Positions 5,336 to 32,262 of a DNA stretch of 64,000 bases are shown here, piece by piece; the first letter of the stretch is position 1; the number at the start of each line of letters is the position of its first letter. Location of the stretch: the NCBI RefSeq assembly GCF_030282845.1, contig NZ_JASTWE010000016.1, forward strand, positions 1 through 64,000. Reading direction: 5' to 3'. The translations under genes were made by a program, and so were the position numbers. Source of the DNA: Pseudodesulfovibrio pelocollis (GTDB taxonomy: Bacteria > Desulfobacterota > Desulfovibrionia > Desulfovibrionales > Desulfovibrionaceae). The notes under the pieces were generated by a model. The model was given only the letters and a program-made list of their open reading frames with translations, was not told where the DNA came from and ran no database searches.

Positions 5336-7987
5336 TCAGTAGCGACGCGGCGCACTCTGGCGCATTTCCTCGTCAAGTTGCTCGAAGAGTTCGCGCTTGC
5401 GTTTCTCGAAGGTGAAGGCGCTCTTGACGGCGGCCAGGGCCAGACACAGGATGCTCAGGATGATGACCAGCCCCTTGGTGAACTCCCACCGCTGGTTTCG
5501 GATCACTTCGAGAATCCAGTTGCCCTGCACATCGCGGGCAAAATAGAGCAGACTCGGAATGGCGATCAGGGCAAGCCCGAGTCCGACAAGCTCGAACCAG
5601 ATGAAATTGCGGCCGAGCATGAGCACGAAGAGGGTGCCGTCCCGAATGATGCGCAGCGTCACCAGCCGCCCCTGCAGGGCGTCGATGCGCTCCTCTATCT
5701 CTTCGAGAAACCGGAGAGACTTGCGAAAATTGTCGGCATCCTTGAGGGGCTGGGTCTTGATCCAGTTGATCTTGTCCACACAGAAGTTGAAGTCCTTGTT
5801 GAACTCCAGCAGCAGCTTGGGAAAGGGGAACCAGGCTGCCTCCTTCTGGATGGTCCTGACGCGGTCGGCCTGGTATTCGATATTGGCAGTGATGCGCTTG
5901 ACCTCGCGCCTGACCTCTTCGTCCAGGCTGGCCGAGAATTTTTCCGCGCCCCGGATCAGGAGCCGGTAGGCCACGAAGTTGGTGGTGGCACCGAGCTTGC
6001 GCAGCCGCTCCAGTTCCTCGTTGGCCGTCTCGAAATAGGCATGGCTCTCGTCGAACCGCTTGCCGATGTCCTCGGTCAGCCGGGTGACGATTTCGCGCGT
6101 CTCCAAGGCCTCCTTCTCCACCTCGCTCCACCACTCCCACAGGGAACTCATGAGCTGGACGCGGCCCCGGTCCAGTTCGGGGTCCACCAGAATGCGGTTG
6201 AATACAAACGGGTCGCGGCCGATCAGGTCCCAGAACATGTCCATGGCCTGACCGGTAAAGCCCATCTTGACCATGCACACGGCCTGCCGATAGACCGGAT
6301 CTATCCAGGTGGGAGAAAAGGTATTGGCGTGTCGATAGCCGTTGATGGCATCCTTGAGGTTGCCCTGCACCTCCATCAACCGGGCCTGGAGGTATGCGAA
6401 ATAGCCCTGCTGGAGCGGGGTATAGCTCATCCGCTCCGCCTCCTGCCAATGGAAGAGGGCCTGATCCAGGTCGCCCCCCTCCACGTTCCAGAACCCGAGC
6501 AGCGAATGCGGCTGGTAGCTGCGCGGATACTTGATCTGCGCCTGCTTGATCAACTCCTCGGTTTGGGCGCGTTCGTTGTCCACCAACCCCTGCATGGCGT
6601 CCCAGACAAACTCCCCCTCCTGGGGGGCCAGTTGCTTGAGGCCCTCGCCCCAATCCTTGCCCCGGGTGCGCCAGACCAGCTTGAGCGTCCTGATCTGCCC
6701 CGGGCAATTGATCTCGTACACGGCCCGGGCCAACAGGCTTTCCAGGGTGTTCTTGGCATGCACCACGTCGTGCATGGCCTGGACAAAATCCTTGCCCTGC
6801 ACCATGGAATCAATCCCGGCGAATCCCTTGGAGAATTCCTTGACATCGGTCTTGGCAAGCAGGTGCCATACCTGGGGCTGGGGCGTGGCCAGATGTTTGG
6901 TCGGGCACAGGTCTGGCGTGTGGTTCTTCTGGCCGCAATAGAAGCATTCGCCTCCGTCGGCCCCGGTGAAGGCCACGGGCAGGGCCACCTGCATGGTGCC
7001 GTGCCCGAACTTCTCGCCACCCTCGCGCAGGGCGATGGTGCACCAGGAGTCAAGAGAGACCGCGTCGGTGCCGTAACGGGCCTCGTTCATGCGGAACCAC
7101 TCGGAGAGCAGGAAGCCGTCCATGAAACGAACATGGGGAAAGTCGGGAGCCAGCCGGTTCCAGTCGAGCCCGATCTTCTTGGGCAGATCGCCGGTGAACT
7201 GAAGGGCGCCCTGGGACACGGCGGCCATGACCACGGGCCAGTACTGCTTGTCCGGGTCATCCTTGACCGACTTGATCAGGGTCAGGATCTCGCTGCAAAA
7301 GGAGCGCAGCAGCCGGAAATTGTCGAGGGGAAAGAAGATGAACCCATCCTTGACATCCAGAATGTAACGCAGCCCGAGCCGCTTGAGCAGCTCGACGATT
7401 TCGGTGGAAAAATCGCGCCAGCCGAGGATGCTGTCCTTGTCCGACATCCGTCCCAGCGGCTTGATGACAAAGAACCATTTGCGCACGGTCTCGTAGTCGA
7501 GCCCCTGGTCGGCGTGCAGACCGAGCCAGTCCACCGGGGCCAGCCCGTCGGCCATCCCGGCCACCGCGGTGGTCAGGCCGGGCACCGAGCTCACCCGCTC
7601 CTTGAGCTTGGGGTGAATGAGCACCTCCAGGTCGTCGGGCACGCGGCACTCCTGCCTGTCCAGCTCCACGGACAGGGACACGGAATACTCCATGTCGTAG
7701 CCCATCAGGAGCGTCAGCGGCACCACTTGCAGGAAGACCGGGACCGGATTGACCCTGGCCCAGATCTGGAGCCGGGCCAGGGCGCGGAAAATCTCGTTGG
7801 TATTGCAGAACCACAGGGCCTGGTCGCTCTCCCGGGCCACAACCAGCGCGCCGTACTCGCGGAAGGTGTTCTCCACCGCGTTGTGCAGCGTGCCCTTCCA
7901 GGCCACCCACACGCCAACCCCGGAGGCGACCAGACGCGACTGGCTGATCTCCGGCAGGTCATCTATGAGCTTGGCAATGGACGGCAC
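5336..7987 (-). CDS. Large TPR-containing membrane protein with CCHC zinc knuckle
   Basis: An 883-residue protein of unknown function. Residues 1-340 contain no recognised domain. At about 348-361 is C-x2-C-x4-H-x4-C, the exact spacing of a CCHC zinc knuckle. Residues about 460-570 look like tetratricopeptide helices (SLLGFWNVEGGDLDQAL, AYLQARLMEVQGNLKDA). A long charged helical region follows, then two hydrophobic segments (about 782-818 and 836-858) and a basic tail, suggesting a C-terminally anchored inner-membrane protein with a cytosolic body. GTG at 7987 is preferred because GAGGGAG sits just upstream; GTG at 8008 has no ribosome site. A glycosyltransferase gene lies 50 bases upstream on the same strand. 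Confidence 0.6.
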   Translation of the reverse strand: MPSIAKLIDDLPEISQSRLVASGVGVWVAWKGTLHNAVENTFREYGALVVARESDQALWFCNTNEIFRALARLQIWARVNPVPVFLQVVPLTLLMGYDMEYSVSLSVELDRQECRVPDDLEVLIHPKLKERVSSVPGLTTAVAGMADGLAPVDWLGLHADQGLDYETVRKWFFVIKPLGRMSDKDSILGWRDFSTEIVELLKRLGLRYILDVKDGFIFFPLDNFRLLRSFCSEILTLIKSVKDDPDKQYWPVVMAAVSQGALQFTGDLPKKIGLDWNRLAPDFPHVRFMDGFLLSEWFRMNEARYGTDAVSLDSWCTIALREGGEKFGHGTMQVALPVAFTGADGGECFYCGQKNHTPDLCPTKHLATPQPQVWHLLAKTDVKEFSKGFAGIDSMVQGKDFVQAMHDVVHAKNTLESLLARAVYEINCPGQIRTLKLVWRTRGKDWGEGLKQLAPQEGEFVWDAMQGLVDNERAQTEELIKQAQIKYPRSYQPHSLLGFWNVEGGDLDQALFHWQEAERMSYTPLQQGYFAYLQARLMEVQGNLKDAINGYRHANTFSPTWIDPVYRQAVCMVKMGFTGQAMDMFWDLIGRDPFVFNRILVDPELDRGRVQLMSSLWEWWSEVEKEALETREIVTRLTEDIGKRFDESHAYFETANEELERLRKLGATTNFVAYRLLIRGAEKFSASLDEEVRREVKRITANIEYQADRVRTIQKEAAWFPFPKLLLEFNKDFNFCVDKINWIKTQPLKDADNFRKSLRFLEEIEERIDALQGRLVTLRIIRDGTLFVLMLGRNFIWFELVGLGLALIAIPSLLYFARDVQGNWILEVIRNQRWEFTKGLVIILSILCLALAAVKSAFTFEKRKRELFEQLDEEMRQSAPRRY

Positions 7988-8966: not shown

Positions 8967-10076
8967 ATGAAAATATTTCAAGTCATCAACGTGCGCTGGC
9001 ACAACGCCACCGCATGGTACGCCCTGATCTTAAGCCGCCTGCTGGCCGATGCCGGGCACGAGGTGACCGTGCTGACTCAGGGCAACACCAAGCCCGATGA
9101 AATGGCCAGAAGCATGGGCCTGAACACCGTGGCCGTGGACCTGAACACCAACAATCCCCTGCGCTTCGCCGCCGCCACACGACACATCATCCGCCTGCTC
9201 AGAACGCACCGCCCGGACATCGTCAACTGTCACCGGGGCGAAGGGTTCTTCCTGTGGGGCGCGCTCAAGCTGCTGGGTTTCGGGTTCAGGCTCGTACGCA
9301 CCCGGGGCGACCAGCGGCCGCCGCGCAGCGATTTCCTCAACCGGTTCATTCACGCCGACGTGGCCGACGCCGTGGTGGTCACCAACCGACGCATGGCCGA
9401 TTTCTTCCTGCACACCATGCGCACCCCGGCCCACGGGCTCTGGCTCATCCACGGTGGCGTGGATACCGCCCGCTTCGCCTTTGATGCGGCCGGGCGCGAG
9501 CGGGTCCGGGCCGAGTTCGGCTTTGCGCCCCACCATGTGGTCGTCGGCCTTGTGGGCCGCTTCGACCGGGTCAAGGGCCACAAAGAGATCATCGAGGCAG
9601 TATCGAGACTGCGCGACGCCGGACACGCCGATGTCCGCCTCTTCCTCGTCGGATTCGACACGGCCATGACCAGCGACCAGATCCGGGCCACCATCGATGC
9701 GCACAACCTGGGCGACATCACCCGCATCAGCGGCGAGCGCCAGGACGTGCCCGCCTGCATCTCGGCGCTGGACATCGGGGTGGTGGCCTCGCTGTGGTCC
9801 GAAACCATCGCCCGGGCAGGACTCGAAATCATGGCCGCCGAGCGGCCCCTGGTCTCCACCAACGTCGGTGTCATGCCGGACCTGACCGCCCCGGCCATGC
9901 TTGTGGAGCCGGGCGACCCCGTGGGCATGGCCGACACCCTGGCCAGCCTGATCAGAGACACGTCCCTGCGCGACGCGGTGCTTGAGGCGCAGAAAAGGAC
10001 CATGTCACAACTCACCTTCGACGAATTCCTCAAACGCAGCCTGAACCTCTACAACAGCCTCATCGACGGCGACTAG
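8967..10076 (+). CDS. Family 4 glycosyltransferase (GT-B fold)
   Basis: A 369-residue retaining glycosyltransferase. The N-terminal Rossmann half carries VINVRWHNATAWYALILSRLLADAGHEV and VNCHRGEG. The C-terminal half has VGLVGRFDRVKGHKEIIEA (donor-binding GxxGR/VKG) and ETIARAGLEIMAAERPLV, the E-x7-E signature of GT4. ATG at 8967 is preferred (GGTGGA four bases upstream) over ATG at 8931 or the frame start at 8907, because the protein then begins MKIFQVINVRW, as is normal for the family. The stop overlaps the convergent MltB gene by four bases. Confidence 0.85.
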   Translation: MKIFQVINVRWHNATAWYALILSRLLADAGHEVTVLTQGNTKPDEMARSMGLNTVAVDLNTNNPLRFAAATRHIIRLLRTHRPDIVNCHRGEGFFLWGALKLLGFGFRLVRTRGDQRPPRSDFLNRFIHADVADAVVVTNRRMADFFLHTMRTPAHGLWLIHGGVDTARFAFDAAGRERVRAEFGFAPHHVVVGLVGRFDRVKGHKEIIEAVSRLRDAGHADVRLFLVGFDTAMTSDQIRATIDAHNLGDITRISGERQDVPACISALDIGVVASLWSETIARAGLEIMAAERPLVSTNVGVMPDLTAPAMLVEPGDPVGMADTLASLIRDTSLRDAVLEAQKRTMSQLTFDEFLKRSLNLYNSLIDGD

Positions 10077-19424: not shown

Positions 19425-21110
19425 ATGCGCTACAAACTGCAAATGATGAACACCGACTACGGGGTGGGAACCTTCGCCGCCCTGCCCGAACCGAACCTGA
19501 GCTTCAATGAAATGGTCGCCCATCTGCGCAAGTTCCCCTACGACGACTTCATGCACGAGTTCGTGCTCCAGGGATTCAAGGAATTCCGGCCCAAAAAGCT
19601 CGAAAAGCAGATCAGGGAGATCATGCGCGACAAGGGCGCGTCCGACCCGGTCATGACAGCCATCATGTTTGAAGCCTGCCTGTGTCACGACCGGCTGGCC
19701 CATCTGCTGCAACTGTTCGACGGGCTGGACCCGGCCGGGCTGCTGCCGCACACCCCGGCCATCCACATCCGCTCCGCCCTGCTTGAGGACCAGCCCCTGC
19801 ACCGGCAGTGGATCGAGCTGTTCTGCGACAACATCTTCAACCTCGCACCCCTGCCCGCACCGGACGTGGCCGGGCTGCCTCTCCTCTATTCGCGGGCCGA
19901 CCTCGACCGACCTGCGCCGGTCCCGGCCGCAGACGCCCGCCGCGCCCTGGCAGACCGACTGCCGCCGGAGAATCCCCGCTGCCCCCTGGCCCAGACCATC
20001 GAGCGCGCCCTGAATGCTCTGGAAAAGGCGGACGCCTTCCTCGGCCCGGCCATGCAGCACAAGGCGTCCCTCTCCCCCGTGGCCCGGCTGCGCCACTGGA
20101 TGCCCAAGACCCGCTGCGTGAACGGCCGCATGAACAACAGCCTCGAAGGCATCCAGACCTGCTATGGCCGGGGCCTGACCCCGGAGCGGGCCGAGGCGTC
20201 CTATGCCATGGAAATGGCCGAGCGCTTTTCGTCCTACGCCAGCTTCGGCCCCAAGGGGGTTCTGGGCTATGCCACGGACTACCCCCTGGTCCACGCCGCG
20301 TTGGACGATCTTGAGGCCGAGACCCTGGACCTGCGCGCCATGCGCCTTGAAGTGCCCTATGCGGGCCAGAAGCTCCACTGGCTCACTGGCCACGCCCCGG
20401 ACGGCCAGGGCGGCACGGCACCGCTGCTCGTGCCCGCCCAGTTGGTGTTCCTCTTCTGCAATCTTGACGAGCAGTCCCTGTTCTCGGCCCTCGGGTCCAC
20501 GGGCCTGGCCTCGGGCAACACCCTGGCCGAGGCCAAGGTGGCCGCCCTGACCGAGGCCATGGAGCGCGACAGCGACGCCACCACGCTTTTCGACCCGGCC
20601 CGCTGCTTCCGCGTCACCAGCGACGACCCGGAGATCGCCCGGCTGCTGGCCGCCTACGAGGCGGACGGCATCCACCTCTGGTTCATGGACGTGACCACCA
20701 AGCTTGGCGTGCCCTGCTACAAGTCCGTGGTCCTCGGGCCCAGGGGCGATGTCAACAAGGGCTCGGGCTGTTCACTCAATGGCCGCGCCGCCCTGCTCTC
20801 GGCCATGACCGAAACGCCGTATCCCCACCCCGGCCCGGCCAGCGGCCCGGCCCCGGAGGGGCTGCACGTGCGACGACTCGAGGACCTGCCCGACCTTTCC
20901 ACCGGCAGCGCCGAGGGCGACCTGATGGTTCTTGAGGCCACCCTGGCGGCCAACGGCCTGCGCCCGGCCTATGTGGACCTGACCCGCAAGGACCTCGGAA
21001 TCCCGGTGGTCCGCGCCCTGATACCCGGCCTGGAGTTCATTTCGGATTTCGACCAGTACTCTCGCGTCAGCCCCCGGCTCTTCGCCAACTACCTGGCCCT
21101 GTTCAATTGA
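19425..21110 (+). CDS. YcaO-family protein
   Basis: A 561-residue protein whose C-terminal part (about 230-555) is a YcaO domain, the ATP-dependent cyclodehydratase/thioamidase fold. ATP-binding motifs are visible: GRGLTPERAEASYAMEMAER at about 243 and EAKVAALTEAMERD at about 370, each with the Glu/Arg pattern. LGVPCYKSVV and VNKGSGCSLNGRAALLSAMTE follow. The end is RLFANYLALFN and not the PxPxP tail of azoline-forming YcaO enzymes. The first 230 residues are an unassigned helical region. No RiPP precursor, TfuA or RimO gene is adjacent, so it may act like E. coli YcaO. AAGGA lies five bases before ATG. Confidence 0.82.
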   Translation: MRYKLQMMNTDYGVGTFAALPEPNLSFNEMVAHLRKFPYDDFMHEFVLQGFKEFRPKKLEKQIREIMRDKGASDPVMTAIMFEACLCHDRLAHLLQLFDGLDPAGLLPHTPAIHIRSALLEDQPLHRQWIELFCDNIFNLAPLPAPDVAGLPLLYSRADLDRPAPVPAADARRALADRLPPENPRCPLAQTIERALNALEKADAFLGPAMQHKASLSPVARLRHWMPKTRCVNGRMNNSLEGIQTCYGRGLTPERAEASYAMEMAERFSSYASFGPKGVLGYATDYPLVHAALDDLEAETLDLRAMRLEVPYAGQKLHWLTGHAPDGQGGTAPLLVPAQLVFLFCNLDEQSLFSALGSTGLASGNTLAEAKVAALTEAMERDSDATTLFDPARCFRVTSDDPEIARLLAAYEADGIHLWFMDVTTKLGVPCYKSVVLGPRGDVNKGSGCSLNGRAALLSAMTETPYPHPGPASGPAPEGLHVRRLEDLPDLSTGSAEGDLMVLEATLAANGLRPAYVDLTRKDLGIPVVRALIPGLEFISDFDQYSRVSPRLFANYLALFN

Positions 21111-21516: not shown

Positions 21517-21603
21517 GCCTGGGTGGTGGAATTGGTAGACACCCGAGACTTAAAATCTCGTAATCCTCGGATTGTGCGGGTTCGATTCCCGCCCCAGGTA
21601 CCA
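21517..21603 (+). tRNA. tRNA-Leu (anticodon UAA)
   Basis: An 87-base class II tRNA. GCCTGGG pairs with CCCAGGT in the acceptor stem (G-T at the first pair). TGGTAGAC marks the D loop. The anticodon stem CGAGA/TCTCG encloses CTTAAAA with anticodon TAA. A long variable arm precedes GGGTTCGATTCCC of the T arm, and CCA is encoded. It reads UUA and UUG codons. Confidence 0.97.
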
Positions 21604-21757: not shown

Positions 21758-21787
21758 CAACCCCGACCAGGGGTTGTTTTATTTTGA
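21758..21787 (+). terminator. Intrinsic terminator upstream of the ORP operon
   Basis: CAACCCC at 21758-21764 pairs with GGGGTTG at 21770-21776 around a five-base loop, followed by TTTTATTTT. It should stop read-through from the tRNA region into the operon that follows. Between 21660 and 21757 I see no gene. Confidence 0.85.
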
Positions 21788-21807
21788 ACATATGCCCATT
21801 TTTGTGC

Positions 21808-21835
21808 TTGACAATCGGAAGCATGGTCGTATCAT
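21808..21835 (+). promoter_or_regulatory. Sigma-70 promoter of the ORP operon
   Basis: TTGACA at 21808-21813 and TATCAT at 21830-21835 with a 16-base spacer. The predicted start near 21842 lies behind the ATG at 21839, so that ATG cannot be the start of the first gene; TTG at 21869 is used instead. In D. vulgaris the orp operons are sigma-54 controlled, and no such site was seen here. Confidence 0.75.
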
Positions 21836-21868
21836 CACATGAACACACGCTCACACAAGGGGGAAGGT

Positions 21869-22279
21869 TTGGGCAGGCGGAAAAAAATGCGGATGGTCGA
21901 GGCGGAGCCCTGCGCGGTGTTCTACAAGCCGCAGGGGATTCCCATGCGCGAACTGGAGAGCCTGGTGCTCTCCGTGGAAGGGCTTGAAGCCCTCCGGCTC
22001 GTGGACGGCGAGCGGATGCAGCAGGTGGAGGCGGCGGGGCGGATGGGCGTATCGCGCCCGACCTTGAGCCGCATCCTGACCGAGGCCCGGACCACCGTGG
22101 CCATGGCCCTATCCGGGGGCAAGGCCATCCGCGTGGACGGCGGCGACTACCTGCTCGCTTCCGAAACCTGCTGCAAACGCAGGCGCAGACGCCGCTGCCA
22201 GATGCCATCCGCACCCGGCGAAACGCCAGACAAAGAAACCACGCCTTCACCAACTGAAGACGGCAACACGGGAGAATGA
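21869..22279 (+). CDS. DUF134 (UPF0251) predicted DNA-binding protein
   Basis: A 136-residue DUF134 protein with a helix-turn-helix: GLEALRLVDGERMQQVEAAGRMGVSRPTLSRILTEAR includes the recognition helix. The start LGRRKKMRMVEAEP matches the family's PRxRK opening, supporting TTG at 21869 with GGGGG six bases upstream. The tail is odd: a CCKRRRRRRC cluster followed by an acidic, Thr-rich end. DUF134 genes often accompany NifX/ORP-type metal-cluster proteins, as here. It is likely the regulator of this operon and may sense metal or redox state through its cysteines; that is inference. Confidence 0.8.
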   Translation: MGRRKKMRMVEAEPCAVFYKPQGIPMRELESLVLSVEGLEALRLVDGERMQQVEAAGRMGVSRPTLSRILTEARTTVAMALSGGKAIRVDGGDYLLASETCCKRRRRRRCQMPSAPGETPDKETTPSPTEDGNTGE

Positions 22280-22281
22280 TC

Positions 22282-22884
22282 ATGCCACAGAACAAGGGAC
22301 TGTCGGGCACCCCGAGGTGCGCAGGCGGCCGAGGCCGCGGAATGGGCGGCGGAGGTGGAGCAGGCGTCGGTGGAGCGGGAGGAGGTCGCGGCATGGGCGG
22401 CGGCGGTCGTGGAATGGGTGGCGGTAATCGCGGCATGACCGCGCAGCCTGACGCCGTTTCCGGAACTGCCCAGGCCGGTCAGGCGCGGCAACGCGCCGCA
22501 ACCGATACCGGCATCCGCAAATTGGCCGTCACCAGCGAAGGCCCGGCCATGACCGACCGGGTCGATCCGCGCTTCGGGCGCGCAGCCGGATTCGTGGTGG
22601 TGGACCTTGAGACCATGGAAACCACCTATGTGGACAACGGCGCGTCACAGGTCCTGGCCCAGGGGGCGGGCATCCAGGCCGCCGAAACCCTGGCCAACGC
22701 GGGCGTCCAGGCCGTGCTCACCGGCTATGTCGGCCCCAAGGCCTTCACCGCCCTGACGGCTGCGGGCATCCGCATCGGGCAAGACGTGGAAAACGTCAGC
22801 GTGGCCGAGGCGGTCAGGCTTTACACCACCGGCGCGGTCTCCTTTGCCGATGCCCCCAACAAACCGGCAGGGGCCAACAAGTGA
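22282..22884 (+). CDS. NifX/NifB-type cofactor protein with Gly-rich N-terminus
   Basis: A 200-residue protein with a C-terminal dinitrogenase Fe-Mo-cofactor-biosynthesis domain (about 80-190): LAVTSEGPAMTDRVDPRFGRAAGFVVVD and ANAGVQAVLTGYVGPKAFTAL are typical of the NifX/MTH1175/ORP fold that carries Mo-Fe-S or Mo-Cu-S clusters. Residues 10-55 are almost all Gly, Arg and Met, with RGMGGG repeated three times and a fourth partial copy. ATG at 22282 has GGGAG upstream; ATG at 22276 overlaps the preceding stop. It overlaps the next gene by four bases. Confidence 0.85.
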   Translation: MPQNKGLSGTPRCAGGRGRGMGGGGGAGVGGAGGGRGMGGGGRGMGGGNRGMTAQPDAVSGTAQAGQARQRAATDTGIRKLAVTSEGPAMTDRVDPRFGRAAGFVVVDLETMETTYVDNGASQVLAQGAGIQAAETLANAGVQAVLTGYVGPKAFTALTAAGIRIGQDVENVSVAEAVRLYTTGAVSFADAPNKPAGANK

Positions 22885-23759
22885 TCTACGCCATTGCCAG
22901 CGGCAAGGGCGGCACGGGCAAGACCACCGTGGCCTCGTCGCTCGTCTCCCTGTGGGACGGCCCGGTCACGGCCGTGGACCTCGACGTGGAAGAGCCGAAC
23001 CTGCATCTCTTCCTCAAGCCGGAAATCCACCGGACCGACCCCGCATACATCGAGATACCCGAGGCGGACGAGTCCAAATGCACCCTGTGCCGCGCCTGCT
23101 CGACCCTGTGCCAGTTCAAGGCCATCACGGTCATGGGCCAGACCCTGCTCATCTTCCCGGAGATGTGCCACGGGTGCGGCGGCTGCCTCACGGTCTGCCC
23201 GGAAGGCGCGCTGACGCCCGGCAGACGACAGCTCGGCGAGATCTGCCACGGCCGCGCGGGCAACGTCCGATTCATCATGGGCCGCCTGCGCGTGGGCGAG
23301 GCCATGAGCCCGCCGCTCATGCGCCAGGTCAAGGCCCTGTTCGCGGACATGGTTGCCGAAGACGACAAGGCCGACATCATAGTGGACGCCCCGCCCGGGG
23401 TCAGCTGCCCGGCCGTGAGCGCGGTGATCGATGCGGACTGCGTGGTCCTCGTCACCGAGCCCACGCCCTTTGGCCTGCACGATTTCAAGCTCGCCTGGGA
23501 GGCCTTCTCGCCCTTTGGCATCCCCATGGGCGCGGTCATCAACCGGGCCGGTATCGGCGACGACTCGGTCCAACGGTTCTGCGCGGACAAGGGCATCCCC
23601 ATCTGGGCGGAGATCCCCTTTGACCGCGCCGTGGCCGAGGCCTATTCGCGCGGCGAGGTGGTGGCCCGGGCCGTGGCTCCCCTCAGGGGGACATTCCGCC
23701 AACTGCGCCGGAACATGCGCGAGGCCGCCATGGCCAGGGAGGCGGCATGCGCGAGATAG
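22881..23759 (+). CDS. ParA/MinD-type ATPase with two ferredoxin clusters (ORP complex)
   Basis: A 292-residue P-loop ATPase with an inserted bacterial ferredoxin module. Residues 8-16 are the deviant Walker A GKGGTGKTT. CTLCRACSTLCQ and CHGCGGCLTVCP at about 70-115 each ligate a [4Fe-4S] cluster. IIVDAPPGVSCP is the switch/Walker B region. The family includes the D. vulgaris ORP-complex ATPases and may load or move metal clusters with ATP. It starts with GTG overlapping the previous stop and overlaps the next gene by 13 bases. Confidence 0.88.
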   Translation: MIYAIASGKGGTGKTTVASSLVSLWDGPVTAVDLDVEEPNLHLFLKPEIHRTDPAYIEIPEADESKCTLCRACSTLCQFKAITVMGQTLLIFPEMCHGCGGCLTVCPEGALTPGRRQLGEICHGRAGNVRFIMGRLRVGEAMSPPLMRQVKALFADMVAEDDKADIIVDAPPGVSCPAVSAVIDADCVVLVTEPTPFGLHDFKLAWEAFSPFGIPMGAVINRAGIGDDSVQRFCADKGIPIWAEIPFDRAVAEAYSRGEVVARAVAPLRGTFRQLRRNMREAAMAREAACAR

Positions 23760-24643
23760 TGGTCATCAGCGGCAAAGGCGGCGCGGGCAAGACGTCCATC
23801 GCCGGGGCCTTTGCCCATCTGGCCGAGGACGCGATCTTCTGCGACCTGGACGTGGATGCCCCGGACCTGCACCTGCTCCTCACCCCGCGCCATCTGGCAG
23901 AGCACCAATTCATGTCCGGCCACGAGGCGGTCATTAATCCCGAGGCATGCACCGGCTGCGGCCAGTGCGCAGAATTGTGCCGGTTTCACGCCATCACCGG
24001 ACCTGAAAACGAAACCGACACCGCCTATCGCGTCCTGCCCTTTCGTTGCGAGGGGTGCAAGGTCTGCGTGGAGCTGTGCCCGGCACAGGCCATCGCCTTT
24101 CCCGAACGGCACTGCGGCGAGTGGTATGTCTCGGACACCCGCTTCGGGACCATGGTCCACGCCCAGCTTTTTCCGGGCGAGGAGAACTCCGGGCGCCTTG
24201 TCACCCTGCTCAAGCGGCAGGCCAGGGCCATCGCCGAGGAACGCGGCCTTGAGCTGGTTCTCTCGGACGGCGCGCCCGGCATCGGCTGCCCGGTGATCAG
24301 CTCCCTGGCCGGGACCAATCTGGCCGTGCTCGTCACCGAGCCCACGCCATCGGGCATCCACGACCTGATGCGCGTGGCCGAGCTGTGCGACGGATTCAAG
24401 GTCAAGGTCGGGGTGATCATCAACAAGTGGGACATCAACCCGGAACAAACGAACGCCATCGAGTCGTACAGCACCGGCAAGGGATACACGGTGATCAGCC
24501 GCATTCCCCACGACCGGGCCGTGACCGACGCCATGGTCAACCGGCAGGTGGTGACCGAATACGAACATGGCGATCTTTCCGCCACACTCAAGGCAGCCTG
24601 GACAGACACCCTGGCCTTGCTCGACGCGGACAAGGCGACCTAA
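23747..24643 (+). CDS. Second ParA/MinD-type ATPase with two ferredoxin clusters
   Basis: A 298-residue paralogue of the preceding ATPase. Walker A is GKGGAGKTS near residue 9. CTGCGQCAELCR and CEGCKVCVELCP around residues 67-110 hold two [4Fe-4S] clusters, and LVLSDGAPGIGCP is the Walker B/switch region. In the D. vulgaris ORP system two such ATPases form a complex with the orange protein. The pair overlaps here by 13 bases, consistent with coupled translation and a heterodimer. Confidence 0.88.
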   Translation: MREIVVISGKGGAGKTSIAGAFAHLAEDAIFCDLDVDAPDLHLLLTPRHLAEHQFMSGHEAVINPEACTGCGQCAELCRFHAITGPENETDTAYRVLPFRCEGCKVCVELCPAQAIAFPERHCGEWYVSDTRFGTMVHAQLFPGEENSGRLVTLLKRQARAIAEERGLELVLSDGAPGIGCPVISSLAGTNLAVLVTEPTPSGIHDLMRVAELCDGFKVKVGVIINKWDINPEQTNAIESYSTGKGYTVISRIPHDRAVTDAMVNRQVVTEYEHGDLSATLKAAWTDTLALLDADKAT

Positions 24644-24724
24644 CGACAATTTTTGGTCCCGGACGCGGCTCGTCCGGAACTTTTCTATTCAACACACAAA
24701 AAAACCTGCCAAGGAGACTCGAAT

Positions 24725-25099
24725 ATGAATACCCTCGTAGCCCTTCCCACCGTCGCCCCCGGCGGCATGGACGCCTCCATCGACGCCCACTTCGGCCACT
24801 GCGACCTGTACACGGTCGTGGAGATCGAGGACGGCAAGGTCAAGGATGTGCGCACCCTGCCCAATGTCCCGCACCAGCAGGGCGGCTGCATGGCTCCGGT
24901 CAACCATCTGGCCCAGAACAACGTCAAGGTGCTCATCGCGGGCGGCATGGGCATGCGCCCGCTCATGGGCTTCCACCAGGTGGGCATCGACGTCTACCAT
25001 GGTAACGGCACGGCCACGGTCTCGGCAGCCATCCGGGCCTTCATCGATGGCTCGCTGCCCCGCTTCTCGCAGGAATACACCTGCGGCGGCGGCCAATAG
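24725..25099 (+). CDS. Orange protein (ORP)-like Mo/Cu-cluster protein
   Basis: A 124-residue NifX/MTH1175-fold protein. GGMDASIDAHFGHCDLYTVVEIEDGKV, VPHQQGGCMAPVNHLAQNNVKVLIAGGMGMRPL and the cysteine near the end (YTCGGGQ) match ORP-like proteins. D. gigas ORP carries a non-covalent Mo-Cu sulfide cluster. ATG at 24725 has AAGGAG eight bases upstream and follows an 80-base gap, so it may also have separate expression. The D. vulgaris homologue has been implicated in cell division and septum placement; the physiological role is open. Confidence 0.85.
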   Translation: MNTLVALPTVAPGGMDASIDAHFGHCDLYTVVEIEDGKVKDVRTLPNVPHQQGGCMAPVNHLAQNNVKVLIAGGMGMRPLMGFHQVGIDVYHGNGTATVSAAIRAFIDGSLPRFSQEYTCGGGQ

Positions 25100-25166
25100 C
25101 GGTTCACGCGCCCGGGACGGCCCGCCACAGGGCCGTCCCGGCGCCGACACCCCAGGGAGGAACGCC

Positions 25167-25433
25167 ATGCCCATCTACGACGTCCGCTGCCCGGAGTGCG
25201 GCTATGACGGCGAGACCATCGTGCTGCACAGCGCGGCCCCGGTGCTGTGCCCCCAGTGCGGCAGCCAGAAAACCCAGAGAGCCATGTCCGCCACTAGTTC
25301 CCTGACCGGCAAGAGCGCCCCGTCCATGCCAGGCCATGGGCCCGGCCCGGGCGACACCGGCTGCTGCGGCTCAGCGCCCGGCCACTCGGGCTGCGCCGGA
25401 CCCGGCTCCTGCTGCGGCCGGAACTCGGGATAA
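25167..25433 (+). CDS. FmdB-type zinc-ribbon protein with Cys-rich tail
   Basis: An 88-residue protein. MPIYDVRCPECGYDGE and CPQCGSQKTQR form an FmdB-like zinc ribbon (two CxxC pairs about 23 residues apart). The C-terminal 35 residues are Gly/Pro-rich with four further Cys groups (GCCG, GCAG, SCCGR), resembling a metal-chelating tail. ATG at 25167 follows GGGAGG. FmdB itself is linked to formamidase/amidase gene regulation; in an ORP operon a role in metal delivery or regulation is more plausible. That is inference. Confidence 0.75.
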   Translation: MPIYDVRCPECGYDGETIVLHSAAPVLCPQCGSQKTQRAMSATSSLTGKSAPSMPGHGPGPGDTGCCGSAPGHSGCAGPGSCCGRNSG

Positions 25434-25488
25434 ACGCCGTGCCGCCATACCCCTCATCACCCATCCGCCACACATCGGAGAAACAACC

Positions 25489-25851
25489 ATGCTCATCGTC
25501 ATAGCATCCCCGCGCGGCCAGGAACTGGGACCGTTCCTGGCTCCGCTCAAACAACTCAAGGGGTGCGAGCTTGTCTTCGCGCCCACCGGCTCGGCCGCCC
25601 TGGAGATCGTGCGGGCGGGCGCGCCCTCCTTTGTCATCATCGACCAGGGACTGCCCGACGCCGAGCCGCTCAAGCTGGTGACCGACATCATGATGGTCAA
25701 TGCCATGGTCAACACGGCCGTGGTCAGCCCGCTCTCCGAAGAGGAATTCCACGAGGCCAGCGAGGGCCTCGGCATCCTGGCCGCCATCCCGCCCGCCCCG
25801 GGCGCGGACGACGGAAAGCGAATCGCCGGGATATTTTCGCGATTCATCTAG
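25489..25851 (+). CDS. Receiver-like protein of the ORP operon
   Basis: A 120-residue protein with the alternating strand-helix pattern of response-regulator receivers. FVIIDQGLPDAEPLKLV occupies the place of the phospho-acceptor strand and VVSPLSEEEFHEASEGLGI that of the conserved Thr/Lys region, but the acidic pocket and the Lys are not clear, so it may be unphosphorylatable. No output domain is present. GGAG lies eight bases before ATG. Hypothetical proteins of this size are known in Desulfovibrio orp operons. Confidence 0.6.
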   Translation: MLIVIASPRGQELGPFLAPLKQLKGCELVFAPTGSAALEIVRAGAPSFVIIDQGLPDAEPLKLVTDIMMVNAMVNTAVVSPLSEEEFHEASEGLGILAAIPPAPGADDGKRIAGIFSRFI

Positions 25852-25908
25852 CCAGCGCGAAGCGGGGAGCCGGAAGCCTCCCCCGCCGGATCGCGCACGG
25901 AGGACACG

Positions 25909-26274
25909 ATGGAGAAGATTCTGATCATCGGCTGTCGAAACACCATGGACGACGTGTGCATCGGCTGCTCGCGGTGCATGGTCGCCTTCAACCGCCGCGA
26001 GGGGTATTTCGATCGCTACAAGGGCATGGACGCCGAGATCATCGGCATCCTCAACTGCGGCGGCTGCCCTGGCACGAGCATCGTCCAGCGGCTGGTCCAG
26101 GTGAAACTGTGGAACCTGCCCCTGCACGAGCAGCCCACCAGGATTCATGTCGGCCCATGTCTGGTGGACCACTGTCCCTATTACGACGACCTGGTCACCA
26201 AGATTCACGCCAAGGCGGGCATCGAAGTCATCGAAGGCGCGCATCCCTACATGCCCGCCACGGTCTTCGCCTGA
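25909..26274 (+). CDS. CGGC-domain putative metal-binding protein
   Basis: A 121-residue CGGC-domain protein. DVCIGCSRCMVAFNRR near residue 17, ILNCGGCPGTS near 47 and VGPCLVDHCPYY near 83 give seven cysteines. The family is predicted to bind metal but is uncharacterised. GGAGG lies seven bases before ATG, and the gene ends the ORP operon. Confidence 0.8.
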   Translation: MEKILIIGCRNTMDDVCIGCSRCMVAFNRREGYFDRYKGMDAEIIGILNCGGCPGTSIVQRLVQVKLWNLPLHEQPTRIHVGPCLVDHCPYYDDLVTKIHAKAGIEVIEGAHPYMPATVFA

Positions 26275-27172: not shown

Positions 27173-29500
27173 CTATTCGAGGGGCGCGGCCTCCTTCATG
27201 TCCCAAACGCCGCAGGGGCAGCAGTTGGCGCAGAAACCGCAGGCAATGCACTTGTCCGGGTCCACCACGCGCTCGAAGCCGCCGCCCGCAAGCTCCACCC
27301 GCCGGATGGCCGACTGGGGGCAGACTGTCTCGCACAGGTAGCAGTCGCGGCAGGCGCCGCACGACGAGCACTCGGCCGCGCACTGTTTCATGTCGCTGAA
27401 TTCCACCACGCGCGGGTCAAAATACTCAAGCGTCATGCGCGAGTAGTCGATCATCCGGCGGGTGTCGGAGCACGGGCGGCGGTTGTTCATGAGGTCGTCG
27501 AGGACCTCGGCGGCGCGACGGCCATGGCCGATGGCGTGGGTCAGCAGGCCGGGCCGCACCAGATCGCCGATGGCGAACACCCTGGAATCCGTGGTCTGGA
27601 AATCGTTGTTGACCACCACGTGGCCGCGATCAAGGGCGATGGACTCGGGCAGAAAGGCCACGTCCGGCTGATCGCCGATGGACATGATGACCGTATCCGC
27701 CTCCAGCAGCTCGCCGGACTGGAGCAGTACGCCCTGCTCGGTGATCTCCTTGGTGAAACAGGGCCACTTGAAGCGCGCGCCGACCTCCTCGGCCTCCTTG
27801 CGCTCCTTGCCAAAGGACGCGGGCTCCTGAATGTCGATGAGGGTGATGTCTTCGGCCCCGAGTCCGGCGGCCACGGTGGCCACATCGCAGCCCACGTTGC
27901 CCGCGCCGATGATGACCACCCGCCTGCCGGGCCGGGCCTCGCCCCGCTTGGCCTGCTTGAGGAAGGTCAGGGCGGGCACGATGCGCTCATGGCCCGGCAC
28001 CGGGATGACGCGCGGCTTCTGCGCGCCCACGGCCAGGATCACGTAGTCGAACTCCTCGCGCAGCCGGGTGAAATCCTCGGCCTTGAGTTCCTGGCGCAGG
28101 TGGACATGGGGCAGCACCTCGGCGGCGCGTTTGATCTCCGCCTCCACCACCTCCTTGGGCACCCGGCTGTCCGGGATGGCAGAGGCGATCTTGCCGCCCA
28201 GGGTCTCGGCCATGTCGTAGACCACGGCCTCGTGCCCCTTCATGCGAATCTGCCACGCCACAGAGATGCCCGCCGGGCCGCCGCCGATGACGGCCACGCG
28301 CCCGCCGGACAGGGGGGGCAGCTTGGGAGCCGCGCTCTTGTATCCCTGGCGGCCGAGCTTGGTGATGTCCACCGAGGCCATGTCGCCGGTCTTGCGGGTG
28401 CACCCCTGCATGCACAGGTTGGGGCAGAGATAGCCGCAGACCGTGGCCGGAAACGGGGTATAGGCCAGGGCGAGGTCCATGGCCTCGTCCACCAACCCGT
28501 CGCGCACCAGCCGCCACCGCTCCTGCACGGGCATGCCCGTGGGGCAGCTGGACTGGCACGGGGCCAGATATTTGCGGTGCTCCCACACCGGCACCCTGCG
28601 CCGCAGGTCGCCATGAACGATGAGCGGGATGGGCGAGCGGTCGAGGCGGGTCAGGTCGCCGATGAGGCCGCCCCGGCCCAGTTCGGCGTCCCACACTCCG
28701 GCCCGGAACTCGGCCATGGAACGGCGCGCCTTGCCCTTTTTCTCAAAAGGTGTCCTGGCCCGGATGAGCTGCCACTCCTCGCGCCGGGTCAGCCGCTTGA
28801 GCAGCCGCGTCCGTTTGATCTTGCCCAGAAACTCGGCGAGGTTGGCGGTCAGCCATTCCCAGGAGGCATCGTCGATGGGCTCCATCACGGCATCGGCCTG
28901 GGAGAAACCGTCGATTGGGCCGCGCACGAAGATACGCCCGCCCACCATGCCCACGCAGGGGCGATAACCCAGGACGTTGGCCGGACTCTGGGGCTCGTGC
29001 CCACAGATGACCGCCGTGCCGCCCGCCATGAACTCGGCGAAATAGTCGCCCACCGAGCCGAGGACCCAGAGTTCGGGCGGATCGAAACGGGGGTTGGTCT
29101 TGGTCATGGTCATGCCGCGCGCGCCGAGGTTGCCCGCCACAAGCACCTTGCCCTGAGCCATGGCGTTGCACGCGCCGTTGCTGGCGTGGCCGTGGACAAT
29201 GATCTCCGCGCCCGCGTTGAGCCAGCCCACGTCGTCAGAGATGGGCCCCATGACCTCGATGGTGGTGCCGGGAAAGCCCTTGGAGCCGATGCGCTGGCCC
29301 GCCGAGCCGGTGATGGTGACGTGGATGGGCTCCTCTCTGGATATCCAGAGCCTGCCGCCGATGCCGTGCTGGCCCACGGCCTCCACCTCCAGCCTGCGCG
29401 CGCCCTGGCGCACGGCGCGCTGGATGCGCTCCTCAAGGATGCGCGAATCGACGCGGACCCCGTGGTCGTGCCCACTGATGCGATGTATTCTCTGTGCCAT
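27173..29500 (-). CDS. Glutamate synthase: GXGXG domain fused to GltD-like oxidoreductase and ferredoxin
   Basis: A 775-residue fusion. Residues 1-215 are the GXGXG beta-helix domain normally at the end of GltB (IEVMGPISDDVGWLNAGAEI). Then comes the GltD-type part: Fe-S ligands in CQSSCPTGMP (about 315) and CGYLCPNLCMQGC (about 355), an FAD site IGGGPAGIS (about 403) and an NAD(P)H site IGAGNVGCD (about 527). A C-terminal ferredoxin has CGACRDCYLCETVCP and CIACGFCANCCP. It passes electrons to the FMN subunit for reductive amination of 2-oxoglutarate. It is the last gene of the operon, 27 bases behind the FMN subunit. Confidence 0.88.
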   Translation of the reverse strand: MAQRIHRISGHDHGVRVDSRILEERIQRAVRQGARRLEVEAVGQHGIGGRLWISREEPIHVTITGSAGQRIGSKGFPGTTIEVMGPISDDVGWLNAGAEIIVHGHASNGACNAMAQGKVLVAGNLGARGMTMTKTNPRFDPPELWVLGSVGDYFAEFMAGGTAVICGHEPQSPANVLGYRPCVGMVGGRIFVRGPIDGFSQADAVMEPIDDASWEWLTANLAEFLGKIKRTRLLKRLTRREEWQLIRARTPFEKKGKARRSMAEFRAGVWDAELGRGGLIGDLTRLDRSPIPLIVHGDLRRRVPVWEHRKYLAPCQSSCPTGMPVQERWRLVRDGLVDEAMDLALAYTPFPATVCGYLCPNLCMQGCTRKTGDMASVDITKLGRQGYKSAAPKLPPLSGGRVAVIGGGPAGISVAWQIRMKGHEAVVYDMAETLGGKIASAIPDSRVPKEVVEAEIKRAAEVLPHVHLRQELKAEDFTRLREEFDYVILAVGAQKPRVIPVPGHERIVPALTFLKQAKRGEARPGRRVVIIGAGNVGCDVATVAAGLGAEDITLIDIQEPASFGKERKEAEEVGARFKWPCFTKEITEQGVLLQSGELLEADTVIMSIGDQPDVAFLPESIALDRGHVVVNNDFQTTDSRVFAIGDLVRPGLLTHAIGHGRRAAEVLDDLMNNRRPCSDTRRMIDYSRMTLEYFDPRVVEFSDMKQCAAECSSCGACRDCYLCETVCPQSAIRRVELAGGGFERVVDPDKCIACGFCANCCPCGVWDMKEAAPLE

Positions 29501-29527
29501 TATTTGAACTCCCGTGCTCGCCGGAGC

Positions 29528-31162
29528 CTAGATCACGTATTTGATGTCGAGCCGCTCGGCCACGTCCCTGTCGCCGATGCCCAGGCCGTCGGACATGCCG
29601 ATGGGCAGCGAGGTGGACCGGCCAAGGGGCGCAAAGACCTTGCGCAGCTCGGTGTCGAAGGCGAGGTAGAAATCCACCACCCGCTCGGCCACCTGCTCGG
29701 GGTCCAGGCGGCGGTAGATGCGCGGGTCCTGCGAGGTGATGCCCTTGGGGCAGACGCCGATGTTGCAGACGTTGCAGCGGTCCTTTTCGCTGCCCACGCA
29801 GCCAGCGCCCGCCTGCATGACGTACTTGCCGATCTGGACCATGCTCGCGCCCAGCATGATGAGCGCTGCGGCGTTGGCCGCCAGGTTGCCGTGCTTGCCG
29901 ATGCCGCCGCCCGCGATGAGCGGTATCTCGTTTTGCGCGCCGGCAACGCACAGGGCCTTGTAGCAGTCACGCAGGTTGGAGGCGATGGGGTGGCCCATGT
30001 GGTTCATGGACACGTTGTAGGCCGCGCCCGTGCCGCCGTCCTCGCCGTCGATGGCCAGCCCGGCCGCGTAGGGGTTGCGCACCAGATTGTTGAGCACGGC
30101 CAGGGAGGTGGAAGAGGCGGATATCTTGGGATAGACCGGCACGCGAAAGCCCCAGGCCATGGACATGGACTGGATCATCTTGGCCACGGACTCCTCGATG
30201 GAGTACTGGGTCTGGTGGGTGGGCGGGCTGGGCAGGCTGACGCCCACGGGCACGCCGCGGATGGCCGCGATGAGCTTGTTGACCTTGTACCACATGAGCA
30301 GGCCGCCGTCGCCGGGCTTGGCCCCCTGGCCGTACTTGATCTCTATGGCGCAGGGGTCTTCCTTCATCTCCGGGATGGCGTGGATGATCTCGTCCCAGCC
30401 AAAGTAGCCGGACGCGATCTGGAGGATGACGTATTTCAGGAAGCGCGAGCGCAGCAGACGCGGCGGGCAGCCGCCCTCGCCCGTGCACATGCGCACCGGC
30501 ATGCCCAGTTCCTCGTTGAGGTAGGCCACGCCCATCTGCAAGCCCTCCCACATGTTGGGCGAGAGCGCGCCAAAGGACATGCCGCCGATGACCAGGGGAT
30601 AAATCTCGCGCACGGGCGGCTTCCATCCGTTCTCGCGCTGGCAGCGCAGCTCGTCCTCGGGGGAGAGCACGCGGCCGAGCAGGGTGCGCATGTCGAACTC
30701 GTGGCGGCCCGCGTCAAGGGCGGGGTCCGTGAGCATGGAGATGCGGATGAACTTGATCTGGTCGAGCAGGCTCTCGCCGCTGTTCCTGCGGCCGCCCCGG
30801 GTGCGCGGCTGGCCGCCCCGGTTGTTGTGGAACTCCAGGGTGGTGGAATCGTACTGGCGGACCGGCTCGATGGCGTTGTTGGGGCAGACCATGTTGCACA
30901 TGGCGCAGCCGATGCAGGCATAGGCCGGGTCAGTGCGCTGGCGGATGCCGTGGTACACGGAAAAGGTGTTGGACGGCCTGGCCTGGAGCCCCATGGGCGC
31001 GATGATCTCCCGCTTGCGAAACACACCAAACTCGATGGCGCTTACCGGACAGACGGCGGTGCACCGGCCGCAGTTGGTGCAGGTGGCGATATCCCATTTG
31101 ATCTGCCAGGGAAGATCCTTGACGCCTAGCGTTGCAGGGGTAACGGGTCGTTCTGTGAGCAT
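29528..31162 (-). CDS. Glutamate synthase FMN-domain subunit with N-terminal ferredoxin
   Basis: A 544-residue subunit. CTNCGRCTAVCP (about 28) and CIGCAMCNMVCP (about 80) form a two-cluster ferredoxin. The FMN-binding TIM barrel follows (KYGQGAKPGDGG, IDGEDGGTGAAY, IAGGGIGKHG), where 2-oxoglutarate and ammonia become glutamate. CNVCNIGVCPKG supplies [3Fe-4S] ligands. This layout matches archaeal-type, ferredoxin-bearing glutamate synthases. ATG at 31162 has GGGAGG seven bases upstream and overlaps the amidotransferase gene by 37 bases. Confidence 0.9.
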   Translation of the reverse strand: MLTERPVTPATLGVKDLPWQIKWDIATCTNCGRCTAVCPVSAIEFGVFRKREIIAPMGLQARPSNTFSVYHGIRQRTDPAYACIGCAMCNMVCPNNAIEPVRQYDSTTLEFHNNRGGQPRTRGGRRNSGESLLDQIKFIRISMLTDPALDAGRHEFDMRTLLGRVLSPEDELRCQRENGWKPPVREIYPLVIGGMSFGALSPNMWEGLQMGVAYLNEELGMPVRMCTGEGGCPPRLLRSRFLKYVILQIASGYFGWDEIIHAIPEMKEDPCAIEIKYGQGAKPGDGGLLMWYKVNKLIAAIRGVPVGVSLPSPPTHQTQYSIEESVAKMIQSMSMAWGFRVPVYPKISASSTSLAVLNNLVRNPYAAGLAIDGEDGGTGAAYNVSMNHMGHPIASNLRDCYKALCVAGAQNEIPLIAGGGIGKHGNLAANAAALIMLGASMVQIGKYVMQAGAGCVGSEKDRCNVCNIGVCPKGITSQDPRIYRRLDPEQVAERVVDFYLAFDTELRKVFAPLGRSTSLPIGMSDGLGIGDRDVAERLDIKYVI

Positions 31163-32262
31163 TGGACAACCTCCCGGCAATCGGGTCCGACGATTGCGGT
31201 GTCGAGATGCATGGGTTGGAAATCTTTGCTTTTGTCGCGGTCCGGGATGGCGGCGTTGAGCCCGCATATCTCGGAGGAGAAGGCGAAGACGCCGCTTGCG
31301 GGGTCGCCGCCCACCACGCCGGGGCGCAGCTTCTTGCGGTCCTGGACCATGAACATGGTCCCGTCGGGCAGGCAGCCGATGACGCAGTTGGGACCGTCGA
31401 TGATCAGCTTGCGGCACGAGCGCTTGAGGCTTTGCAGAAACTCCCTGTCAGGGTGCTGGCGCATCTCGTCGTCGCTCAAGGGGGTGATGACGTGCTTGTA
31501 GGCGCGGATGTCGAGCCCCAGCCTGCGGGTGGAGAAATGGGCGATGTGGGTGAAGACCTCGGAATCGGACTGATAGCCCGAGTAGCCCTCCACCCCGCGC
31601 GACATGAGGTACTCGCGGATGGGCACGAAGGCGGTGTTCTCGCCGTTGGTCATGGTGGCCACGCCCTCGATGAAGAAGGGATGGCAGGCATAGAGATTGA
31701 TGGCGTAGTTGGTGTTCTGCCTGCCCTGGGCCAGGATGCGCCGGGCGTGCAGCTCCTCGCGGCCCAGTTCCAGGTAGGCGCCCATCTCAAGGGGATCGCC
31801 CACCTCCTTGATCATGATGGTGTCGGGCCAGAAGGAGAAGACCATCATGTCTCCGGTCTGCTCGCCCTCGGCGCGCAACGCGAGCCGGGTGCGCACCAGA
31901 CGGCGGCCGCGCTCGTCATCGGCCAGTTCGTCCCACGCGGCCGGACACTCGTAGGCGATGGCCGCGTAGGTGCCGCGCCGGGGCGTCCCGGCAGGCGGAT
32001 CGGACCTTGGCGCGAAACGCACGGCATGCCTGATTTCAAACCCCTGTCCCGCCATGTATTCGTCCAGGCGACGCAATCCGGCCTCGGTGAATATGCCTGA
32101 CAGGATGGGGTGGTCCTTCAAATCCTCGAAGGGCCCGCCGAGTCCGCCAAGGTAGAGCCCCACGCCGGAGCCGTCGTGCCCCTCCTTCATCACGTTGAGG
32201 GCGTCGATGGCCCGCATGGGCGACACCGGATCGCGGCTCGTGAGCGCAAATAAACGGCACAT
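31126..32262 (-). CDS. Glutamate synthase glutamine amidotransferase subunit
   Basis: A 378-residue class II (Ntn) glutamine amidotransferase corresponding to the N-terminal domain of GltB. It starts MCRLFA, so Cys2 becomes the N-terminal nucleophile after Met removal. MKEGHDGSGVGLY, NYAINLYACHPF, TNGENTAFVPIREYL and SDSEVFTHIAH are conserved in the family. It releases ammonia from glutamine for the FMN subunit. It is the first gene of the three-gene operon; no convincing promoter was identified in the 308 bases before it. Confidence 0.9.
   Translation of the reverse strand: MCRLFALTSRDPVSPMRAIDALNVMKEGHDGSGVGLYLGGLGGPFEDLKDHPILSGIFTEAGLRRLDEYMAGQGFEIRHAVRFAPRSDPPAGTPRRGTYAAIAYECPAAWDELADDERGRRLVRTRLALRAEGEQTGDMMVFSFWPDTIMIKEVGDPLEMGAYLELGREELHARRILAQGRQNTNYAINLYACHPFFIEGVATMTNGENTAFVPIREYLMSRGVEGYSGYQSDSEVFTHIAHFSTRRLGLDIRAYKHVITPLSDDEMRQHPDREFLQSLKRSCRKLIIDGPNCVIGCLPDGTMFMVQDRKKLRPGVVGGDPASGVFAFSSEICGLNAAIPDRDKSKDFQPMHLDTAIVGPDCREVVQCSQNDPLPLQR

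Follow-up and report, generated by a model that had tools for sequence, protein, structure and literature searches.

Here we describe an operon for the orange protein (ORP) complex of sulfate reducers in a 64,000-nucleotide stretch of the Pseudodesulfovibrio pelocollis genome (contig NZ_JASTWE010000016.1, positions 1 to 64,000), the whole of which is called the window. The operon is probably run by a dedicated autoregulator of the DUF134 (UPF0251) family instead of by sigma-54, with ORP as the partner or sensor domain of that regulator. Eight co-directional genes (g1 to g8) lie on the + strand at 21808-26274, as a preliminary description of this DNA had claimed, and the Pfam matches bear this out (DUF134, Nitro_FeMo-Co twice, CbiA with Fer4 twice, Zn_ribbon_8/FmdB and CGGC). 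Judged by its sequence, the core gene set is that of the known ORP-complex operon. The orange protein holds an unusual molybdenum-copper-sulfur (Mo-Cu-S) cluster, and its function was called unknown (PMC6650914).

The ORP complex of Desulfovibrio vulgaris Hildenborough (Orp3, Orp4, Orp5, Orp8 and Orp9/MrpORP) has ORP and two ferredoxin-ATPases in common with the window. Published work reports that tagged Orp3 pulls down Orp4 and Orp8, that Orp3, Orp4 and Orp8 co-purify, and that MrpORP transfers iron-sulfur (Fe-S) clusters to them in vitro (PMC6345978). A role of the complex in cell division is a hypothesis (PMC4672049). The D. vulgaris genes form two divergent operons, which need sigma-54, an activator and integration host factor (PMC3897727). 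In contrast, the window has one co-directional operon with a sigma-70-like promoter and a DUF134 gene, its genome lacks an MrpORP fusion, and no relative of the sigma-54 activator was found in the window (no tblastn match in the 64 kb to the activator of locus L130 at E 1e-3).

The same exchange of regulators is seen in relatives. At E 0.001 an ORP query had matches in 132 of 150 genomes from the order, a count that takes in distant DiNase proteins. Sixty neighbourhoods of the order were fetched, selected via the second ATPase, and 80 further named neighbourhoods, the top two of them from Pseudodesulfovibrio, brought the total to 140 loci. Loci are labelled L and genomes G, the window's own genome being G000; genus labels (g3, g10, g12, g15, g19, g29, g32) differ from the operon genes g1 to g8. 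Gene maps of the neighbourhoods were made with tblastn; calling the longest open frame had given wrong genes where the DNA is GC-rich. Of the 60 order neighbourhoods, 28 have DUF134 and 22 have a sigma-54 activator next to the operon (at least 45% identity, no more than about 2 kb away). The two coincide only in L103, and 11 neighbourhoods have neither. Six distant or weaker activator matches of 28 (L089, L090, L091, L092, L097, L124) were left out of this count. Scans for sigma-54 promoters found no clear site at the window operon and were uninformative because none was clear even in activator-bearing loci. Two suggestions of the preliminary description, that this ORP-type operon is controlled unlike that of D. 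vulgaris and that a sigma-70-like promoter and a DUF134 gene lead it, are thus upheld, and the difference in control is well supported.

The leading gene, g1 (21869..22279, + strand), encodes a helix-turn-helix protein that is a Pfam member of DUF134 (7.3e-22; 78.2 bits against a cut-off of 27) with an SRPT helix, and is the predicted autoregulator. Its start is most likely the TTG at 21869, because a GRRKK start is common to the relatives and AAGGGGGAAGG stands before the TTG. The ATG at 21839 was rejected as a start; it lies four bases past the end of the -10 and, as we place the transcript start, upstream of it. The promoter-like sequence TTGACA-16-TATCAT (21808..21835, + strand) agrees with the consensus at 11 of 12 positions. 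Relatives have the same layout, with TTGAC(A/G) and a TATC-like -10 at the equivalent position in L076, L077 and further loci of the genus.

Three operator-like sites, all on the + strand, surround this promoter. The predicted DUF134 operator O1, TGAACATATGCCCA, at 21785..21798 agrees with TGARCATATGYTCA at 13 of 14 positions and has exact copies in relatives. The weak site O2 (21824..21837) lies over the -10 and scores 9 of 14, within background here; relatives have stronger copies, and a copy on contig C6 of the same genome scores 13 of 14. The predicted operator O3, TGAACACACGCTCA, at 21840..21853 scores 12 of 14. The region 21808-21868, earlier proposed as the DUF134 target, therefore holds one good site (O3) and a weak one (O2), and the best site (O1) lies just upstream of it. 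At up to two mismatches the window contains three matches, two of which are O1 and O3, against 0.27 expected.

Palindromes at DUF134 promoters are built from the half-sites TGAGCA/TGCTCA and fall into two types. Type A, TGAGCATATGCTCA, is found upstream of the DUF134 genes of the genus, near the -35 or the -10. Type B, TGCTCATTTGAGCA, is found in other genera near the -10 and has the half-sites of type A in reverse order. A site of either type at 12 or more of 14 positions precedes 33 of 41 DUF134 genes versus one of 19 operons without DUF134 (L111). These 19 come from 32 loci without DUF134, after exclusion of five divergent loci, L119, L124 and six without ORP nearby. A scan anchored on open-frame starts missed sites (L079, L082, L084 and others), and the final counts are from the scan that replaced it. 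The genus has 28 exact copies of TGARCATATGYTCA, spread over 22 of 36 genomes, with none for a reversed-pattern control and about two expected in the 36 genomes by our own estimate from pattern length and genome size. By inspection, 25 of the 28 sites are at the promoters of DUF134, ORP or Gly-rich-protein genes. Exact TGCTCATWTGAGCA is found in four of 17 chosen genomes, once each, beside ORP.

At most one mismatch gives five sites in the window's own genome (O1, two on C6 and two others) and one for the control. The C6 sites belong to a second promoter, TTGACA-16-TATCTT with the same operator, at 44148-44199 of that contig (L238, L222). It drives a small Gly/Cys-rich protein and is divergent from a gene that by eye is HypD-like; the arrangement in G085 is similar, and a second ORP follows the corresponding promoter in G087 and G146. 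Exact operators also stand upstream of genes that by eye are permease-like (L240:4165, in G087) and ArsR-like (L245:4522, in G156), which may be further targets or chance.

The type of operator follows the type of DUF134 helix. We compared the two in 45 DUF134 genes (window, L076-L138 and L267-L269). Genes with SR[PA]T-type helices (n=26) have operator A in 23 cases and B in none, and those with SR[HQ]-type helices (n=19) have B in 13 and A in none. Helix and operator thus agree in all 36 DUF134 genes with a called operator, the other nine having no call. Where one locus contains two DUF134 genes (L089-L092, L103, L115), each obeys the rule.

Two genes of the operon contain a Nitro_FeMo-Co (DiNase) domain, and the orange protein is the second gene, not the fifth. 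Residues 80-196 of g2 (22282..22884, + strand; counted in the frame from 22276) align with residues 4-120 of D. gigas ORP (2WFB) at E 1.2e-39, a match along the full length of that protein, the ORP domain being at about 22513-22863. The gene matches the Nitro_FeMo-Co Pfam model at 3.4e-20 and MrpORP at only 2.7e-5, and its start is more likely the ATG at 22282 than that at 22276. In contrast, g5 (24725..25099, + strand; Pfam 4.7e-20), which is of the HFGHC type, was rejected as ORP with a 2WFB score of 1.2e-4. It matches 2YX6 better (1.1e-9), and its nearest NCBIfam model is MrpORP, in the C-terminal part (1.8e-15). From these scores g2 is the ORP orthologue and g5 a stand-alone distant paralogue related to the C-terminal DiNase domain of MrpORP. 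The labels "Gly-rich NifX" for g2 and "orange protein" for g5 in the preliminary description were therefore mistaken. The N-terminal segment of g2 is Gly-rich, and such a segment is joined to ORP in the window, L076, L077 and L136. Single-sequence Pfam and NCBIfam scans placed the Gly-rich segments of the genus in no family. In L122 a small Gly-rich protein before the ATPases (6314-6619) has a DUF5320 match barely over the cut-off; we take it as a possible counterpart of Orp5. The native orange protein has a mass of about 12 kDa.

In many relatives the regulator and the orange protein are one gene. DUF134 and ORP share an open frame in 20 of the 140 loci (seven in the window's genus, five in g32, two in g3, one each in g10, g12, g15, g19 and g29, plus L138). 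The 28 DUF134-bearing order loci comprise 18 with DUF134 fused to ORP, seven unfused (L076, L077, L078, L084, L085, L097, L100) and three (L107, L113, L116) in which an extra gene, downstream of the operon, joins DUF134 to a g5-type domain. The region upstream of this extra gene has neither A nor B, and an exact B-type site lies beside ORP in the L107 and L116 genomes. In L115, 117 residues identical to 2WFB lie behind DUF134 in one frame. From its ORP sequence this is taken to be the D. gigas locus; its order is ORP-ATPase-ATPase-DiNase-receiver, with DUF134. In L115 ORP continues the DUF134 frame, with an internal start of its own, whereas in the window it is a separate gene with a Gly-rich N-terminus, two bases lying between the g1 stop and the g2 start. 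A sequencing error behind this split is unlikely; L076 and L077 are split likewise.

The fused frames retain a start for ORP. Of the 20, 19 have an in-frame ATG or GTG directly ahead of the ORP domain (the exception is L086), and all 19 have a strict Shine-Dalgarno sequence versus 13 of 386 other in-frame ATG/GTG codons of the same frames and 18 of 778 in the ATPases. In ten aligned fusions the internal Met is invariant and the surrounding linker varies, and seven fused frames have an additional internal start at a Gly-rich linker. In the window no ATG or GTG is found within the 12 codons before the ORP domain of g2. Full-length DUF134-DiNase matches were inspected in L267-L270, with lower-identity matches left out. 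Three of these (L267-L269), from another family of the phylum, are fusions found later, with an internal ATG in all three, a strict Shine-Dalgarno sequence in two (the third has a looser GGAG) and a B-type site in two. A fold search with the DUF134-ORP model finds 2WFB with the ORP part (1.1e-20). Structures of sigma region 4 turn up only among the weak matches (E about 0.03-0.07) and rank lower than integrase matches that look like chance. The open-access literature searched, seen largely as titles and abstract openings, did not present DUF134 as an ORP regulator with an operator, a DUF134-ORP union or an internal start.

Genes g1 to g4 overlap or are two bases apart, and the later gaps measure 81, 67, 55 and 57 bases. 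Ferredoxin-MinD ATPases of the Orp3/Orp4 kind are encoded by g3 (22881..23759, + strand; CbiA 5e-12, Fer4 2.8e-12; 35% to g4) and g4 (23747..24643, + strand; Fer4 9.6e-13, CbiA 1e-9), the sole such pair found in the genome. A terminator-like hairpin with a T-rich tail lies in the g4/g5 gap (24659..24677, + strand). Of 11 relatives, L077 and L078 show it clearly and L076 more weakly, six with short gaps lack it, and L104 and L115 were unusable. In 57 aligned g5 sequences H22-F-G-H-C26, H50 and C120 are invariant. The D. vulgaris MrpORP has a DiNase domain with the same HFGHC, and its CXHFGHCE and CDH motifs are suggested to hold a 3Fe-4S cluster (PMC6345978).

The last three genes are an FmdB zinc ribbon with a Cys-rich tail (g6, 25167..25433, + strand; TIGR02605 1.9e-12, 47 bits against a cut-off of 31.3; Zn_ribbon_8/FmdB 9.7e-11), a degenerate receiver-like protein (g7, 25489..25851, + strand) and a CGGC protein (g8, 25909..26274, + strand; Pfam 8.6e-27, 93.9 bits against a cut-off of 27). 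The earlier label of g7 as receiver-like holds for its predicted fold, which has a mean predicted local distance difference test (pLDDT) of 95.2; in Pfam the Response_reg match is weak (0.0015) and below the cut-off. Foldseek finds Spo0F and other receivers, and a PhoP profile matches at 1.1e-6. In 39 sequences D52, H88, E92, G93 and G95 are invariant. Asp52 is thus kept in 39 of 39, as in the Spo0F and PhoP receivers; unlike these, g7 has no acidic pair or Lys at the usual receiver places by inspection and has a signature of its own in H88/E92/G93/G95. A binding module is the more likely role for it, rather than a step in a phosphorelay.

All eight genes recur beside ORP-complex genes in relatives. 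The 60 order neighbourhoods contain ORP in 54, a g5-type gene in 54, a receiver-like gene in 36, FmdB in 16 and CGGC in nine; ORP is divergent from the ATPases in five. The receiver-like, FmdB and CGGC genes, which set the window operon apart from D. vulgaris, are not peculiar to it, and some occur where a sigma-54 activator is encoded as well. The tail of g6 has five Cys that do not vary among 18 sequences, part of which come from activator-bearing loci. In L078 a NifU-type scaffold gene (8979-9386; Pfam 4.2e-18) lies between g5 and g6, with matches in the orp neighbourhoods of L110, L115, L130, L131 and L133. The invariant Cys and His residues and the NifU-type gene in six relatives fit the earlier suggestion that the Cys-rich proteins could be scaffolds or metal donors and prove nothing.

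Outside the operon, a tRNA-Leu gene (21517-21603) and a terminator-like hairpin (21758-21776) lie upstream, and farther up, beyond the tRNA-Leu, is a YcaO protein gene (19425-21110); YcaO also adjoins the operon in L076, L077 and L136. The next gene downstream is DUF922, at 26496 after 221 bases, and on the - strand at 27173-32262 are genes that by eye resemble a split glutamate synthase set. Elsewhere in the genome, contig C47 (L007:960-3049) has a gene that by eye is PAS/sigma-54 activator-like adjoining a Nitro_FeMo-Co protein of 123 aa, at a place distant from the orp operon. Contig C27 (L006) has by eye a nitrogenase cluster (NifH, D, K, E, N and B-like) with two frames containing Nitro_FeMo-Co domains.

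We infer a mechanism in which DUF134 would bind the inverted TGAGCA/TGCTCA half-sites around the sigma-70-type promoter and so control the operon. It would most likely be a repressor, because the sites lie over the -10 and the start region. ORP would be its partner or sensor domain, as suggested by the single open frame in 18 of the 28 DUF134-bearing order loci, and the internal ribosome-binding site of the fused gene would also yield free ORP. A metal-sulfur cluster would be assembled or loaded by the pair of ferredoxin-ATPases together with g5 and the Cys-rich proteins, and DUF134 would in turn respond to the cluster state of ORP. A bolder reading, somewhat less likely than not, makes the orange protein the metal-sensing domain of a DUF134 transcription factor, with one gene giving both a DUF134-ORP regulator and free ORP, and the state of the Mo/Cu (or Fe-S) cluster in ORP reported to the promoter of the very complex that builds it.

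Several points weigh against the operon being under a DUF134-ORP regulator. The sensor claim rests on relatives because DUF134 and ORP are separate proteins here. The model of the fusion has moderate confidence (mean pLDDT 74.4, linker below 50). No MrpORP fusion is among the five PF02579 places of the genome (g2, g5, two in the nif cluster and one small protein), and its two strong Mrp/NBP35 genes are on other contigs. O1 has one mismatch and O2 is within background in the window. With 100 shuffles per region, the best shuffled score came to 12 for nine of the 41 regions and to 13 for one, so that scores of 12 are weak, and eight of the 36 operator calls score just 12 of 14. Exact TGARCATATGYTCA is missing from 14 of the 36 genus genomes and lies elsewhere at three of its 28 sites (L240, L245, L250), and 13 of the 17 chosen genomes have no exact TGCTCATWTGAGCA. 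The operator and Shine-Dalgarno patterns were defined after inspection of the same sequences, and related species are non-independent in all counts. Two further points of this kind, eight of 41 DUF134 genes without either motif and the exact B-type site of L111 with no DUF134 in its 16 kb, would also suit a palindrome that belongs to another regulator with DUF134 a mere neighbour. The open-access literature, searched mostly by titles and abstract openings, offered no treatment of DUF134 function and no DUF134 binding data. Another regulator is nevertheless very improbable, given that operator type tracks the DUF134 helix without crossover, even within one locus, and that the motif is absent from 18 of the 19 scanned operons without DUF134.

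A different doubt concerns the sensing role. DUF134 might regulate the operon while its union with ORP reflects tight translational coupling, the full-length fusion being a minor read-through form. An internal ribosome-binding site implies production of free ORP, linkers differ in length and have low confidence in the model, and DUF134 is free of ORP in the window as in the seven unfused order loci and the three with a g5-type partner. The frame is nevertheless open and in phase across very different linker lengths in eight labelled genera and another family, and the same three loci join DUF134 to the other DiNase type, so that we regard coupling without sensing as unlikely. Also unlikely, and slightly more so, is an ordinary ORP-complex operon that serves cluster handling or septum positioning, the roles proposed in D. 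vulgaris, and in which the exchange of regulator means nothing more. In its favour, ORP and the two ATPases occur widely across the order, and three papers describe the D. vulgaris complex with the roles suggested for it (PMC6345978, PMC3897727, PMC4672049). This account leaves unexplained the DUF134-ORP unions, the internal start and the same promoter layout at a separate Gly/Cys-rich gene.

We thus favour control by a DUF134 autoregulator with ORP as its partner. The DUF134 family gains a predicted operator, and for this operon a predicted partner, together with a recognition-helix code that can be tested. The predicted regulator, its DNA site, the fusion with the D. gigas sequence and the conserved internal start offer direct and cheap tests of the role of ORP. 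The orange protein is fused to an apparent regulator in many relatives and may in part be a metal sensor. If this is true, the role of the D. gigas orange protein would be at least partly gene regulation.

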